64,000 nt of DNA from Trichoderma breve. Lineage: Eukaryota > Ascomycota > Sordariomycetes > Hypocreales > Hypocreaceae. The stretch covers positions 1,178,001-1,242,000 of the forward strand of contig NC_079237.1 of the NCBI RefSeq assembly GCF_028502605.1, given 5' to 3'. A program made the translations under genes and the position numbers. The notes under the pieces were generated by a model that did not search any database, had not been told where the DNA came from, and saw only the letters and a list, made by a program, of their open reading frames with translations. Shown here in pieces: positions 29,593 through 44,502 of the stretch (its first letter is position 1; each line of letters opens with the position of its first letter).

Positions 29593-32500
29593 TCAACACT
29601 TTGAATCATCCGGATTTAAGATTATTTGATCCCACATGTCCTTCATTTTAAGCTGAGCTTCATATGGACACCCCTTTGCATATATTAGTGGTGTCCCACC
29701 GATTTTATCTTCCGCATTAACATCCGCCCCCCTTTTAAGCAACAACTGGACCGTATCTTGGTTATGATATGCTGATACCGCGTATGATAATGGTGTCTTG
29801 CCAAGATTATCTTTAACGTTAACATCCGCACCCCCTTTGAGCAACAGCTGGACCGTATCTCCGTTATAATATGTTGATACTGCGTATGATAATGGCGTCT
29901 TGCCATAATTATCTCTAACGTTAACGTCCGCGCCCCAGTTAAGCAGCAGCTGGACCGTATCTTGGGGATTATAAGCTGATACAACGTATGATAATGGTGT
30001 CTTGCCATGATTATCTTTAGCATTCACATCTGCACCTTTTGCAAGAAGCAGTTGGATTATATCTTCATCATAGCCTTTTAATACTGCATGTGATAAGGGC
30101 GTTCTGCCATCATTATCTTTGGCGTTAACATCTGCCCCTCTTTTAAGAAGTAGCTGGATCGCAGCTTTTTGATGAGGACCTGTAAAACGCCACATGGTCG
30201 CTATTGCATGTGATAATGGCGTGGCGCCATTATTATCTTTAGCATTGACATCTGCACCTCTCTCAAGCAGCAGCTTAACCAGAGGTTCGTTGTCTTCGAG
30301 ACATACTACATATGAGAGTGGCGTCCTGCCGACCGAGTCTTGAACGTTAATTTTTGCGCCTTTGTCAAGTAATATTTCAACCACAGCCCTACTAGCATTA
30401 TATGCGGCTGGTAATGGCGCCTTGCCATGGCTGTCTTTCATCTCGAGGTCTGCACCTCTATGAAGCAAAACCTCAACTGTAGTTTTCTTGCCGTTCTCTA
30501 TCCCGTAAAATAATGGCGTTTTCTTTTCCTTGTCTTGAGCGTCAATTTCCGCACCTCTGTCAAGCAGCAGTTGAACCATATATGGGCTGCCAGATTGTGC
30601 TGCATATGATAGGGGCGTTCTGCTCATTTGGTCTTTAGCATCAATTCCCACGCCCCTGCTAAGCAATAGTTTGACCATAGCTTCGCTGCCACGCTGTACT
30701 GCATAAGATAATAACGCTCCGCTTATTTGATCTTCAGTATCAATTCCTGGGCCCGTGTCAAGCAATAGTTTGACCATAGCTTCACTGTCAGACTGTATTG
30801 CATAAGATAATGGCGTCTTGTTGTCAAAATCTTGAACATTGATCCTCGCGCCTCTACTAACCAATAGTCGGACTGTATCTTCACTGCCGGACTCTACCGC
30901 ATATGATAATGGAGAGCGGCCTTCATATCCATTGTTAATGTCAACACCACTATTGAGCGATTGCTCAACGAGGGAATAAAGACCTTTGTTAGCTGCCATC
31001 ACGAGAAACATGCGGCCATTGCCATCTGTGTCGACAATCTTTGCACCATTCCCAAGCAGGAAATCAGCATTAGCTTGTTGACCGTTCGAGACAGCAGCTA
31101 AAAGTGCTGCCAAATAATCGAGATCGGCGCCTCTATCGAGAAATAATTTTAGGATAGACTGATGGCCATTCCTAGCAGCGATGTTTAGATTTCCTTGAGT
31201 GTAGGGGCGTAGGTCCAAATTCCTGGGGCGAGCCATTTTAAGGTAAACGGCAGCAGACAAAGTGGCGCCCTTCATGATGAAATCACTAAAACTGCGTGCT
31301 TGAGAAAATTTGAAACTCCTCCCAAGGCTATTTTTTTCAATACCATCAGAATAATAGTCGTCAACAATATCGTGAAATGAAGGCTCAATCTCCAAATAAG
31401 CATCTAAAAACACTCGGGTTGATTCAAAGCTATTCATCGCCAAGGCTGCAAATACTGGTGCCCCATAGCGTTCCGGTTCTATTTTTAGGAAAGATAATAT
31501 GCACGGGTGGCGCCTGATCAGATGGCTCATGTTAAATTCGGCCAGGATATACAGAAAGCTCACGTTCCGTTTATGTCGCCTTATCTCATGCCTTTCGAGG
31601 AAATTATCGAGTTGAATCCAATCATCCAGCGGAAATTCTTTGAGAATCTCAGGCTGGTTGGCACCATGAGCCTCCGCCTCGTTTGCGTGATGTAGAACGT
31701 TTTTCACAGCGTATTCTAAGAACGGAAAGGAAGCGTTGGCTAATTTGCGAGGCTGGCTTTTTGCTTCTTCAGGTGCTACCCTTGCCGCCATTTCGAGATA
31801 AGCAGGTTTGCCGATAGCAATGTAATTCAAACAACACTGCTTCAATCGCTCGTGGCCGTCCCCGTGCACATCTGCCTGAAGATCAGGCCAAATATCTCTT
31901 AGTCCATTTTCTTTGAGGAGATAATCTTTAACCGATTCATGTATAAACTGAACAGTCGGAGTCTTAGACTTTGTTACTTCCGTAAGGCCTTTAGATGAAT
32001 TCAATATGAACCTTTCGATATCAGAAGCTGTAATCTCATTTGGTTGCCACTCATATAGAACATTGGATAACATTGCAAAATATAATTGCTCCGGTCGCAG
32101 AGGTTGTTTCGTGAAAAGCACCCACTGAATACAGAGGAGCAACTCATCAGCATCCTGTCGATCGCGAGTTAAAATGTCGCGGAATAATTCATGGAGATCT
32201 GCTGGGATCTCTTGTAGTCTTTTCCTCAGGACATGAATGCGGCCTTTATCATGTTCCTTGTTCAGAATACTAACAACCAGAACAACCCACATAAAGACAC
32301 CCGAGGCTTTTTCTTGAAGTTCGGCGCGGATTTGGTTCGCAAGAGCGCTACTCCCAATCTTCAGTTCGCTATTGATATAACTAATCATGTCCTGAGTGTG
32401 TCCTTCCTGGCCTTCGAGGGTCAGATTTAGGCCTTTCGAAATTGAGACATGAGGATAATGGCGACTTGAAAAGCAGACACGGAAACTTCCAGCTGTAGGC

Positions 32501-38960: not shown

Positions 38961-40535
38961 TTAATCACCATCGGCGCAATCGCACTCAGTTATTTTTGAT
39001 CCTGGAGATCCCCCTATTCGCAAATGACTCCTCCGTGTTTTGCCCACAAACTCTTCGGGCACACCACTATGTCCTGGAAAACATTCCCATGCACCACTCT
39101 TGGATTTCTTAATTTCATATGCCGCTAGGTGTTGAATAAACCCATTGGTTGGAATAATGAAATCCTCGGCCCCTATGAGCATGACGTGAGTTGAGTCGGC
39201 ATTTGATAGATTCCAGTGATATGCTTCCCCATAGCCATTGACAACTAAGGGCTCATTGGCTCGGTTGTTTTGAATCTCAAAGATTTCTGTACACACCAGA
39301 TCGCTATTGTCCGAAGAAGCAGCTGCGGGAATCAGAATCTTAATATTGAATATCTTCATGTACGTCTGAGTCAAGATATACTTTTCAACAGGAACGGGCT
39401 GCTTTTCGACTATGAATATTGGGGTTTGCTGAACGTCAAAGGTCGGAATGGTAGGAAACAGCCTCTGTCGAAGTTCACGGGGCGCGCCATGTTCCATAAT
39501 ATCCAGCCACGACGGAAATGACATTGATGTCTTCCTCACAACCTCAGCAATAAGATCTTCTCTACTGCGGTTGTAATCGACCTCGATTTCAACGCCCAGC
39601 AAATGCATCATGCTATACACTGTATCCTGGGGATATTTCGATTTGCGCAACCACAAACTCCGCCAAACACCAACTTGCCTCATGGCGGGTGTTGTGGCCA
39701 ACAAAAGAGCTGCGAAAGCCCAAACAACTGCGCCATCGCCGAGACATTTCAACAACCACCTCCCTTTTCGGACAACTTCGCCTGTTTTTCTGTTGGTGAC
39801 TTCGATATGTATTACACCCTGGAGATGATTCAGGATACCCCGTATATCTGCTAATGCAAGGCTATCCTCAAGGTAGGTAAAATCCTGATAGCCTGGCCAA
39901 GCAGATCTTTCTGTAAAAAGATAGTCATCAATCTTTTGTTTGAGTAACCACACGTAATCCATGCCTAGCACATATGTGTTTGGACATAGAGCTGCCTCCT
40001 GAACTGTCCACGCTCGACTAGCCCATTCAGTCTCAATTTCGAAATCTTGAGCTGCAGAAACGCCACCGGGCATGACTATAACTGCCGTCGCATTCTTGTA
40101 TATGTTGCCCATGTTGGGAATTTGGAGTTTCTTGTCGTCTAGAGAGTTTTGATGAACACAGATGAAATCAAGCCATAGTAATTCGCATCCCAAATGTCGA
40201 GCTGCAAGTGCTGCTTGGCGCAGACCATGCCAACTGATTGTAGATGGGGAACTATCGCCCATGTCAATGTGTAGAGGCCGATTCGCAATCGTGCTAAGCC
40301 TCATGACCTCGGGAGAAGAGTTCCAAGTGTGTGATATGGCGACATATTTGGGAAGTTGACCGTCGACATTATTCCAGTCCAAGTCCCTCCATTCCAAAAG
40401 AGAGAACTCAGCATTGGTCAGTGCTAAAAGGCCGCTCACAGTAATGAATCTTGAAGCGCCATCCACATGGTTTGACTGGTAGCTCCAAGTTGTTTGATCT
40501 GCCTCGTAGAATGTTTTAATTGGAATGCCGGTCAT
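38961..40535 (-). CDS. HET-domain protein 2
   Basis: 524 aa from the ATG at 40535. The frame stays open to 40652 without an ATG, so an upstream exon is possible. The HET core is clear: KYVAISHTW (about 63-71), ELLWLDFICVHQ (about 118-129), IPNMGNIYKNATAVIVMPGG, and RAWTVQEAAL (about 174-183). HET domains mediate incompatibility cell death. A hydrophobic stretch of about 18 residues (VVWAFAALLLATTPAM, about 270-285) follows the core. It could be a membrane segment, which is not usual in the family. The C-terminal 200 residues have no domain I know. It stands at the edge of the accessory region, next to the siderophore transporter. Confidence 0.85.
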   Translation of the reverse strand: MTGIPIKTFYEADQTTWSYQSNHVDGASRFITVSGLLALTNAEFSLLEWRDLDWNNVDGQLPKYVAISHTWNSSPEVMRLSTIANRPLHIDMGDSSPSTISWHGLRQAALAARHLGCELLWLDFICVHQNSLDDKKLQIPNMGNIYKNATAVIVMPGGVSAAQDFEIETEWASRAWTVQEAALCPNTYVLGMDYVWLLKQKIDDYLFTERSAWPGYQDFTYLEDSLALADIRGILNHLQGVIHIEVTNRKTGEVVRKGRWLLKCLGDGAVVWAFAALLLATTPAMRQVGVWRSLWLRKSKYPQDTVYSMMHLLGVEIEVDYNRSREDLIAEVVRKTSMSFPSWLDIMEHGAPRELRQRLFPTIPTFDVQQTPIFIVEKQPVPVEKYILTQTYMKIFNIKILIPAAASSDNSDLVCTEIFEIQNNRANEPLVVNGYGEAYHWNLSNADSTHVMLIGAEDFIIPTNGFIQHLAAYEIKKSKSGAWECFPGHSGVPEEFVGKTRRSHLRIGGSPGSKITECDCADGD

Positions 40536-40900
40536 ATTTCGAACTTTTCTCAGGCTCCTCGAGTAAACCAGATTTGCCAGTTCTAGACGGATGGTGGGAG
40601 AGAATGCCAGCTTAAATGGAAGATTATGAATAGCTCTTGTATTGGGCACCAATGTTGGGCATCAAGTCCTTCAGGTGCTTAAGATGAGGTTTCTCACTGC
40701 ATACATTTACAAAGCTAAGCATTTACACCGACTCTATTAGCGTGGTGTGTCTTTACTTTATTATTGGAATTATCAAGATCTCATATATCTTGATAGTGGT
40801 CAATGCCATCTGTCGACGAGCGACTAGTATGGACCTTGCGGCTGTTGTTATATACTACAATCTGCGGTAGCTTAGTACCTTCAATATCTAAACTCGGTGA
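40536..40900. other. Intergenic spacer
   Basis: 365 bp between HET gene 2 and the transporter, both on the minus strand. The part to 40652 is open in frame with the HET gene. Nothing else seen. Confidence 0.4.
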
Positions 40901-42774
40901 TTAGATGACGTTGCCACGAGTCTGCTTAACATCACGAAGCTTGATATCTCGCCACATCCAAGTACAACCCCAGCCAACCACTATGAAGCATACACTAGTG
41001 ATGAGCATGAGACGTTGTGACTCTCCATATGCAAGAGAAATCCCATGTCGGATCTCTGTGCCTTCAGGGTATCCAAGCTGGGTGTAGATGCTGCTGAAGA
41101 TTGCGTCGACCGGAGCATCGGCTGGAAGATTCTTGATCAGGTTCTTCTTGAACGTGCCCGTCCAAATGGCAGCAGCAATGGTTGACCCAATGGCGCTGCC
41201 AATACTGGAGAATAGGTCGAGAATAGCCATGATAACAGCGACATGTTGGTGGTCTGAAGGAGCCATCATGGCCATTTCTCCAGCAACGACCATGGGGCCA
41301 CCAGCGAAGGCAACGAAGATCTGTGTCATGATGACATAGCCAATGCTCTGGTCAGGCTGTCGGAATTTGATCATAAGACCAACGCCAAGAAGCATGAGAG
41401 GGAGCGCATACAAAGTCGCGGACCACTTGAACCTGCCAGACAAGCGGATGAAGTAAGCAAGGAGGAGAGCCGCGAAACAAGAGCCGACACGGTAAATGTT
41501 GCCAATGTAAGTGGCTTTGGTAATACCAGTATTCCAGACAACCAGCAGCATGGAGCTGAAATAGCTGCCCCAGATGGCCGAATTAGCAAACACAAAGAGG
41601 AACATGAGCCCAGCGAAGAATACTGTCCGGTCCATGAGAAGGTTCACCGGCACAAATTTGACAGGAGCCAGGTACGCCTCGTAGAAGACAAAAGCGATGA
41701 TGAGAAGACCGCCAACGATGATGAAAGCGATGATGATTGGTGCTCGCCACTGCTCAGCCTGGTATGAGTAGATCGAGAAGGAAAGCAGAAACAAGGCCAT
41801 TCCAGTAGCAAGAATGAGGATGCCGATGAGATCAACATCGATGCAGTATTTCTTTATCGAAGCAAGAGTAAGTCGTCCAGATTTCGATTCCAGCAGCCCT
41901 TGCTTACGAGCCTTGACGTGGTTCCAGATGAAGAGGAATCCAAGGGGTCCGACGACTACTGGGGTCACAATGGCCCATATTCCAAAGCCCCATCGCCAGC
42001 CAATACCAGCGATGACGCTGTCCGAGATTGGTCCACCAGCGAAAGTTGTTGCGATATAAGGAGACGTTGCAAAGGCAAGCATCAGGGGTCGGTTAAGGAG
42101 GGAGGTTGTGTCGGCAATGAAGATGGTGATACAGTAGCTGACGCCTTGGGCGCTAGAAGATGCGAATATGGTTAGTCAAGTATGAAAAGCGAAAGGATAA
42201 TCATAGGACTTACCCAATGGATGAAAAGACTTGAGCGGCAGCATAAGTCTTGACGTTGTTACAACCAGCCATCATGATAAATCCAATAACCCAAATGAAC
42301 AGAGTGAGAAGCAAGCCCTGAGGTCTACCCCAAGTGTCGAGGATCTTGGCCAGGGGAAGCTTCGTCAGTCCACCGAATAAGCTAGCCATGATGCCGGTAG
42401 CCGCAGTCAAAGAGTGTTGCTGGAAAGAACTGGTGACGAATGGGTTGAGAGCACCGGTGACGACCTCTTCGATCGATGTAATAAAGTAAATAAGCCAGAT
42501 ACTGTTGCAATGATGTCAACGTTAGCAAGCTGTGATGTTCCCATCATGTGAAATCATCATCGTACATCACATAGGCAGCAACCATGTGCCACTTAGTCCA
42601 CACTTGGGCCGCAGCCTCGATCTTCTGAACACCCCCTTGCGCATCTTTCTCCAAGTCATCGTTGAAATCAGACTTTTCGACGGGATTGTTCTGTCCAGTG
42701 CCTTTTTCATCGGCAATCTCTGGAGCAACAGTAGTTACGTCCCCCTCAGGGGTAGTCTTGGAGAACAAGCCCAT
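40901..42774 (-). CDS. Siderophore-iron transporter (MFS, SIT/MirB-like)
   Basis: Three exons (42774-42566, 42501-42214, 42152-40901) give 582 aa. These proton symporters bring ferric-siderophore complexes across the plasma membrane. Family hallmarks: WTKWHMVAAYV...WLIYFITSIEEVV at the first membrane span, LNPFVTSSFQQHSL, LTKLPLAKILDTWGRPQG between spans 2 and 3, TYAAAQVFSSIGAQGVSYC, and GGPISDSVIAGIGWRWGFGIWAI later. About 14 membrane segments can be counted, the number expected for the SIT subfamily, after an acidic cytosolic N-terminus of about 60 residues. A TATAAAAGG box lies about 115 bp upstream (42887-42895, minus strand). Three Sre-type sites lie a further 330-370 bp upstream, so iron repression is likely. 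Divergent from a CFEM gene. Confidence 0.92.
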
Positions 42775-43772
42775 TATGAGGGATATGTCCCGCTCAGGAG
42801 ATACTTAAATGGCAAAGAAAAGCCAGAGCTGAGAAAAGAAAGTGGCTAAGCTAGACACTTTTCGGGCGAGAGCCCGGCTTTTGCAGCCTTTTATATCTAT
42901 ACAACCCAGCTATCCCATGTGACACCCAGTCTTGGCAGTACCAACAACTACATGACTCAGACTAAATGAAAACCAAGAGAAATCGGGTCCGCGGGAACGT
43001 TGGCATAACGCGATCGAAACCAACAGGGTCACATCGCAAGAAAACATTCGAAAATCCCTCTCGGAGAGCGATCGGTGTGCGAAGAAAACAGCGATTAAAA
43101 CTCTCTCAAAAAGACGGGAGCAAGGGTATATGTAGGCATGGCAAGGATTAAAAGCGCGGCCCCCCTCTTTTGCGCAATCCTCGGCATGCAGGTTCGGGGA
43201 TGGCATCCAATGATTTGATCTTATCTGATGATCTGATAAAATTTTTTATCTGATCATCTCCACCGCCTTCACACCATTACACCACTTCTAGCAAAGCCGC
43301 CGAGATTCAGCTCTCGTATAGCGCCAAATAGTTGTTAGCTTGGGAGCCGGTGCTGGCACGGCACGGCTTGGCGAGGAAGCTGCCAAACTGCATGTGAAAC
43401 TAGAGTAGGATCTTAGAGCGATTTCGGCTTGGGAATCCTTGCACTAGAAGCACGAGACTTGCTGGTTGTTGGCACTTCTATTGAATAAGGTTAATCAGGA
43501 AAGGTTCAGTCCGAAGGTCCAGAAAAGCTCGGATGTTGACAGCAAAGGTTCCGTCGATTTGGGCTGAGCTTCTGCACGCGGGATTTAGACAGTTCTCGAT
43601 TTAGACAGCTCTCCGAGTTGCATATATGTAGCCGACCCTCGGTGTGTCGAAGTAATCCAGGTTTTTTTAATTCCTTTGCTTCTTCTTCTTTTTACCAGAT
43701 CAAGTCCTAATTTTGAGCCCTTAATTCTTCATCAAAAACTACTCTTTTTAGAGTTATTAATCAATCGTTATA
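42775..43772. promoter_or_regulatory. Shared iron-responsive intergenic region
   Basis: About 1 kb between the divergent start codons of the siderophore transporter and the CFEM gene. It contains the transporter's TATA box and the cluster of three Sre-type sites listed separately. Poly-pyrimidine CTTCTTCTTCTT near 43679-43690 probably marks the CFEM core promoter. Confidence 0.6.
43221..43254. promoter_or_regulatory. Three Sre/SreA-type GATA sites (ATCWGATAA)
   Basis: TTATCTGAT at 43221-43229 (reverse complement ATCAGATAA), ATCTGATAA at 43231-43239, and TTATCTGAT at 43246-43254. All three fit exactly the ATCWGATAA consensus of the iron-sensing GATA repressors SreA/Sre1, which shut down siderophore and reductive iron uptake genes in iron-replete cells. 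They lie 447-480 bp from the transporter ATG and about 520-550 bp from the CFEM ATG. Confidence 0.8.
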
Positions 43773-44502
43773 ATGAAGACTACCTCATTCCTCCTTGCCG
43801 CCTCAATGGCTGGCGCTGTGGTTGCGCAGAAACTGTCGGATTACTTTCCGGAATGCTCCCTGAACTGTCTTGAGCAAGGAACTACTTCCGCTACTGACTG
43901 CACTCTCGGTGATGCAGTGTGCTTCTGTGTGCAGAGCAACTACGAGGCCATCTACAACGCAGAGCTTTCCTGCGTCCTCAAGGATTGCGGTGCCGACGTC
44001 TCCGTCGGTAAGTCTACCATTAGAATCGATGAAGGAGGAGAGACTTTGAGACGGACAAACTAACACACATGATACAGACAAGGTCCTCCCTGCTGCGATT
44101 CAGTTTTGCTCTGCCGCTACTGCTTCTGCTTCTGCCACTGCCGCTGCCCCGGCTGAGTCTACATCTGCCACCTCCGCCGCCACGACTGAGACGACTGAGA
44201 CGACATCACATGCGGCTCCTTCTTCTTCTTCTTCTTCTTCTTCTTCTTCTTCTTCTTCTTCTTCTTCTTCTTCTTCGTCTTCTTCCGAAGCATCTGAGAC
44301 TTCCGCTCCGCAAACGACATCTTCTGCTGCTCGCTCAACTTCCGCTCCTCAAACCACTGCTACAAGCTCGACTCCGGTCGGATCTGGTCGTCCTGTGACG
44401 ACCGCCAGCACCACGGCTGCGTTTAGCACTGCTGCAGCTGCAGCTGCTGGGCCAATGGTGACTGCTGCCATGCTCATTGCCGGCGCCGTTGCCATGTTGT
44501 AA
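43773..44502 (+). CDS. CFEM-domain GPI-anchored cell surface protein
   Basis: Two exons (43773-44007, 44078-44502) give 219 aa. Signal peptide about 1-18. The CFEM domain has its eight cysteines (C28, C32, C43, C50, C52, C67, C72, C89), the last one restored by splicing. Asp47, three residues before C50, sits where the haem-iron axial ligand lies in Candida Csa2. A Ser/Thr/Ala-rich stalk follows, including about 18-19 consecutive serines coded by a TCT repeat. The C-terminus is hydrophobic (GPMVTAAMLIAGAVAML), as for GPI attachment. CFEM proteins bind haem or iron, or act at the wall in host contact. The divergent siderophore transporter and shared Sre-type sites favour an iron role here. Confidence 0.92.
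44221..44285 (+). repeat. TCT trinucleotide microsatellite in the CFEM stalk
   Basis: A pure TCT run from 44221 to about 44276, then one TCG and more TCT. It codes a polyserine tract. Such runs often vary in copy number between strains, and here length change stays in frame. Confidence 0.9.

Follow-up and report, generated by a model that had tools for sequence, protein, structure and literature searches.

A siderophore-type transporter gene and a CFEM gene stand head-to-head in the analysed stretch of Trichoderma breve DNA (64 kb in full, called the window below), and the 998 bp between them contain three exact matches to ATCWGATAA inside 34 bp. The question raised by this arrangement is whether the sites form an iron element of the Sre type and, if they do, whether that element governs the transporter alone or the CFEM gene as well. 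Gene models, homology, whole-genome counts of the motif and the published record were brought to bear on it; published work is cited by its PMC number and from excerpts.

The gap and its flanking genes

The gap spans positions 42775–43772. Pattern search placed the three-site cluster at 43221–43254, with exact ATCWGATAA at 43221–43229 (−), 43231–43239 (+) and 43246–43254 (−), precisely where the first-pass annotation had put the sites. The first two together make up a 19-bp palindrome, TTATCTGATGATCTGATAA = TTATCWGATNATCWGATAA (43221–43239), and the third stands separately; neither this palindrome nor the matching triplet at sidA described below had been noted by the earlier reader. HGATAR occurs in the gap at the three cluster sites and nowhere else. 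The cluster lies near the centre, 447 bp from the ATG of the transporter and 519 bp from that of the CFEM gene.

Two other promoter motifs were recorded in the gap. A TATAAA on the transporter strand (42890–42895, −), about 115 bp before the transporter ATG, may belong to a core promoter. The sole CCAAT box of the gap (43207–43211, +) lies 9 bp before the first site and was considered as a possible CBC/HapX site; pattern search over the gap found no ATTGG. The check for HapX covered the spacing CSAATN12RWT, a motif quoted from an excerpt of PMC10602907, and the candidate was rejected on that spacing, the bases found 12 positions on from this CCAAT being TCT (by eye).

The transporter gene (MirB/Sit-like MFS; 40901–42774, −) encodes 582 aa once two introns are spliced out, the splicing model having exons at 42774–42566, 42501–42214 and 42152–40901. 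Its product shares 99% identity with a Trichoderma sp. SZMC 28012 protein and, over its full length, 60–68% with proteins that carry the name siderophore iron transporter mirB; a function as a SIT/Mir siderophore transporter is predicted from this. Searched separately in Pfam, its exons scored above the cut-off for TRI12 and slightly below the corresponding one for MFS_1. Downstream of the transporter lies a gene with a HET (heterokaryon incompatibility) domain (38961–40658, −; Pfam E 1.2e-17).

The CFEM gene (43773–44502, +) has a single intron (exons 43773–44007 and 44078–44502) and encodes 219 aa, laid out as an apparent signal peptide, a CFEM domain with eight cysteines and Asp47, a Ser/Thr-rich stalk and a hydrophobic C-terminus. 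A GPI anchor is suggested by the last of these; like the signal peptide, it was judged by eye. The domain reached 32.1 bits in Pfam against a cut-off of 22, and the best match of the protein was to Trichoderma sp. SZMC 28011 (84%). All 23 aligned sequences keep the eight cysteines that characterise CFEM domains (C28, C32, C43, C50, C52, C67, C72 and C89). Gene models and homology agree with the first-pass annotation in placing the cluster between a siderophore-type transporter and a CFEM gene of opposite orientation. Within the stalk, a CTT microsatellite (window 44219–44285, 22 copies) is translated into a run of about 20 serines; the length of the stalk probably varies, since this run is shorter in the closest homologue (P0001).

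Site clusters across the genome

Four ATCWGATAA are present in the whole window, against a mean of 1.45 in shuffled sequence; because four were reached in 6 of 100 shuffles, the window count alone is unremarkable and it is the clustering that is striking. Counts of motifs in the window are also inflated, since tandem arrays at 29717–30158 and 30587–30816 repeat GATA cores in register. These arrays consist of 102-base and 99-base units and possibly represent a repeat-protein gene.

Genome-wide (38.55 Mb), ATCWGATAA was counted 596 times and a reversed control pattern 409 times. At the genome density 0.015 sites would be expected per 998 bp, with a Poisson probability of about 6e-7 for three or more, so that the motif of Sre-regulated promoters is both present in this gap and enriched there over the genome. 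Pairs of sites with a gap of at most 30 bp, sought in three orientations, were found at six places: C2:1435674, C3:6126058, C6:29122, C6:412711, C6:1221221 (this locus) and C7:1843168. The reversed controls gave two pairs in the same-strand orientation and none in either of the other two. Uniform placement of 596 sites (3000 runs), a simulation that ignores uneven base composition, produced on average 0.29 adjacent pairs (never more than 4) and 0.0003 triples. The genome holds two tight triplets, C6:412711 and this locus, both beside iron-uptake genes. A chance arrangement without function would draw on the abundance of single sites and on the two same-strand control pairs; set against the number of triples expected under uniform placement it is exceedingly improbable, and chance clustering was rejected on the whole-genome counts and the simulation.

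What the clusters adjoin was then read from the neighbouring genes. The triplet at C6:412711 lies between sidA (L-ornithine/L-lysine monooxygenase) and a minus-strand NRPS gene with AMP-binding, condensation and carrier domains, and its third core (triplet at local L035:5012–5046) stands, by eye, at nearly the same distance as in the transporter/CFEM gap. A published account of T. reesei puts the L-ornithine oxygenase gene directly below that for ferricrocin synthase (PMC4812632, excerpt). Two clusters, C6:29122 and C3:6126058, precede paralogues of the transporter; the one at C3:6126058 has only 28–32% identity, Pfam matched none of its exon pieces, and inspection by eye for a second gene beside that cluster turned up nothing convincing. 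The cluster at C7:1843168 is separated by 2.1 kb from a mitochondrial carrier gene, counted to its open frame and with the first exon not located; relatives of this carrier go by the names arg-13 or ornithine carrier. In A. fumigatus, SreA-dependent repression of the arg-13 homologue (amcA/AmcA) and its activation by HapX have been reported (PMC4387927, excerpt). The remaining cluster, C2:1435674, stands before a Pyr_redox_2 oxidoreductase without known iron role. On this reading five of the six multi-site places are iron-uptake or siderophore loci. The oxidoreductase (local L033:5303–6235), which has an exact 19-bp palindrome in front, is a candidate member of the iron regulon. Both tight triplets occupy gaps between divergent genes and the pairs have no evident divergent partner, an observation that with n=2 is too small to conclude from.

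The exact palindrome occurs at four places (this locus, sidA, C2 and C7) and, with one mismatch, at three further ones. These are C5:241336, upstream of another transporter of the same type (C5:239210); C5:2172152, about 0.4 kb before an AMP-binding enzyme, which we take to resemble SidI, with another transporter locus about 6 kb away; and C2:2403380, where the gene that follows is apparently unrelated. Allowing up to two mismatches gave a count of 10 for the palindrome and of four for its control. At C2 and C7 the palindromes (local L033:4975–5003 and L036:4969–4997) are followed by the same ten bases, TTTTTCTTGG, a match longer than binding needs.

Upstream sites were also counted from the side of the transporters, in 1.5-kb flanks. 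Nine transporter loci, our own among them, reached E 1e-18 or better; seven of these had ATCWGATAA upstream and none of 11 weaker MFS matches did, a twelfth weak match without a locus being left out. The closest paralogues of our transporter (C2:421611 and C2:409458, the closest 46% identical) are without a site in the same upstream flank.

A candidate regulator is encoded in the genome. GATA fingers gave eight hits at seven places; at one place two fingers 0.5 kb apart share an open frame and enclose a cysteine-rich stretch, CPGGGRCNGTGGAEGCNGCPAYN. Two GATA fingers flanking such a stretch are the mark of Sre proteins. A single HapX-type motif was found in the genome. DNA binding is reported to depend on a cysteine-rich region of this kind (PMC10938068, excerpt). 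The first-pass annotation had treated the Sre consensus as established for SreA/Sre1, with which the literature is in accord: ATCWGATAA is over-represented upstream of SreA-regulated genes and fits the in vivo sites of Sre orthologues (PMC2610380), and in Fusarium graminearum the promoters occupied by FgSreA contain ATCWGATA (PMC10602907; both from excerpts). The further GATA fingers, together with the likeness of GATA cores to one another, would allow the sites to be used by another GATA factor, acting in nitrogen, light or development, in place of Sre. We regard this as very unlikely, given that clusters of the extended motif mostly adjoin siderophore genes and that the same motif is the one enriched in SreA-regulated genes. 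Assignment to the Sre type is well supported because the clusters keep this company and the genome encodes an Sre-like factor; judged from sequence, the 34-bp cluster is very likely an Sre-type iron element, through which the transporter is very likely repressed by iron.

The CFEM side of the gap

Control of the CFEM gene by the same cluster is plausible from the head-to-head genes, the near-central position of the cluster and the paired contigs of homologues. Among the best 120 of 991 transporter homologues, four species were also represented in the CFEM set, and in three of these the two homologues lie on contigs of equal size, a common contig being a weak proxy for linkage that does not show adjacency: Neonectria ditissima (112,764), Paramyrothecium foliicola (8,042,417) and Bombardia bombarda (1,713,393). 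In the fourth, Cosmosporella sp., they are on different contigs. Of these contigs, that of N. ditissima alone is short enough to speak strongly for linkage.

The genome has 22 CFEM domain hits, six of which form one tandem array. None of the 21 hits other than ours has ATCWGATAA upstream, in 1.5-kb flanks counted from the domain hit instead of the gene start and with the six array members each counted; one (L019) has the motif on its downstream side. The association with the sites may therefore be due to the transporter alone. The cluster would then be a real Sre element for the transporter, and its CFEM neighbour would be under an iron-independent control of its own, for instance as a wall protein. 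The contrast between seven of nine transporters and none of 21 CFEM hits is what such an arrangement would produce, among recognised genes a head-to-head partner is not evident at four of the six clusters, and CfmA–C, CFEM proteins of A. fumigatus, have a part in the structure of the cell wall (PMC12054149, excerpt). It accounts less readily for a cluster set near the middle of a gap between head-to-head genes, for the other tight triplet also standing in a two-sided gap (sidA/NRPS) and for the equal-sized contigs in three of four comparable species. Exclusive control of the transporter is accordingly possible but on the unlikely side, and we lean, with some reserve, towards shared control, in which the cluster would switch both the transporter and the CFEM gene.

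Under shared control, Sre would bind the palindrome and the third site of the cluster when iron is sufficient; the bound factor would repress the transporter to the left and, by extension, the CFEM gene to the right. Iron starvation would lift the repression. The derepressed transporter would import siderophore-bound iron, and the CFEM protein in the cell wall may either capture iron in the form of haem or of some other ferric ligand, or adapt the wall to uptake.

As to the ligand, the first-pass annotation had set Asp47 at the haem-iron ligand position. The codon (43911–43913, +) specifies a residue that aligns with an Asp of Csa2 and is invariant in 23 of 23 aligned homologues. Csa2 (4y7s) was the only PDB match of the single CFEM sequence up to E 10 (E 1.5e-5, with an Asp in the same column), and it was found at E 0.011 by a profile built from the CFEM alignment. 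Comparison of the fold gave no PDB match up to E 10 with Foldseek and a weak match to Csa2 with VIA-align. The position of the residue is thus as described, but it does not discriminate: 21 of the 22 CFEM hits of the genome have Asp there and one has Asn (three of the 22 read by eye), and for this reason Asp47 is not specific evidence and was rejected as an argument for haem binding.

Known systems and significance

In A. fumigatus the bidirectional ftrA/fetC promoter likewise has two divergent iron genes with ATCWGATAA in their common gap, where a GATAA on the opposite strand precedes the motif, TTATCAATCAGATAA. When this two-sided SreA motif was mutated, ftrA was derepressed in the presence of iron, the effect being reported for the ftrA side in the excerpted account (PMC10294635). 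Unlike the present locus, that promoter serves genes of reductive iron uptake, has a pair of sites and not three, and includes no CFEM gene in the same account. The fio1-fip1 genes of S. pombe are divergent. The in vivo Sre-orthologue sites of this gene cluster, of the S. pombe siderophore transporter gene str1 and of U. maydis sid1 comply with ATCWGATAA (PMC2610380, excerpt). These systems differ from ours in belonging to other fungi and, as excerpted, in having no CFEM partner.

SFU1 of Candida albicans encodes a GATA-type repressor. Its deletion led to overexpression of all iron uptake genes tested, a set with CFEM genes of haem uptake (RBT5, PGA7) and a transporter gene (SIT1) in it; a divergent pair or a common site cluster is absent from the excerpted account (PMC5717023). 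Outside Candida, CFEM proteins of Beauveria bassiana and Verticillium dahliae have been tied to iron, and iron deficiency induced almost all of nine CFEM genes studied in V. dahliae (PMC12054149, PMC8867779, PMC10100745). The novelty that the first-pass annotation had implied for a CFEM–iron link beyond Candida was therefore overstated. The Beauveria and Verticillium cases differ from ours in that no link to a siderophore transporter promoter appears in the excerpts (PMC12054149, PMC8867779). Already published, then, are links of CFEM proteins to iron in fungi other than Candida, the sharing of one promoter of Sre type by two genes, and the derepression of CFEM genes together with SIT1 when Sfu1 is lost. 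A CFEM gene sharing its promoter with a siderophore transporter was not found in the literature searched, which took in few subscription journals and was consulted in excerpts.

Filamentous fungi have many CFEM proteins, as the 22 domain hits here illustrate, and few with a settled role. The locus singles out one of them as possibly belonging to the iron regulon, paired with a siderophore-type transporter, and its role can therefore be tested by one promoter mutation and one gene deletion. Its interest is moderate, because one filamentous-fungal CFEM protein thereby gains a testable place in iron uptake. Tight clusters of ATCWGATAA, found mostly at siderophore loci, offer a simple way to seek the iron regulon of Trichoderma. 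It is conceivable, and in our estimate unlikely, that the two products form a functional unit: the CFEM protein, anchored in the wall, would capture ferric siderophores, or some other ferric ligand that is not haem, and pass them on to the transporter regulated along with it. If this were true, some CFEM proteins of filamentous fungi would serve siderophore uptake and not only the capture of haem.
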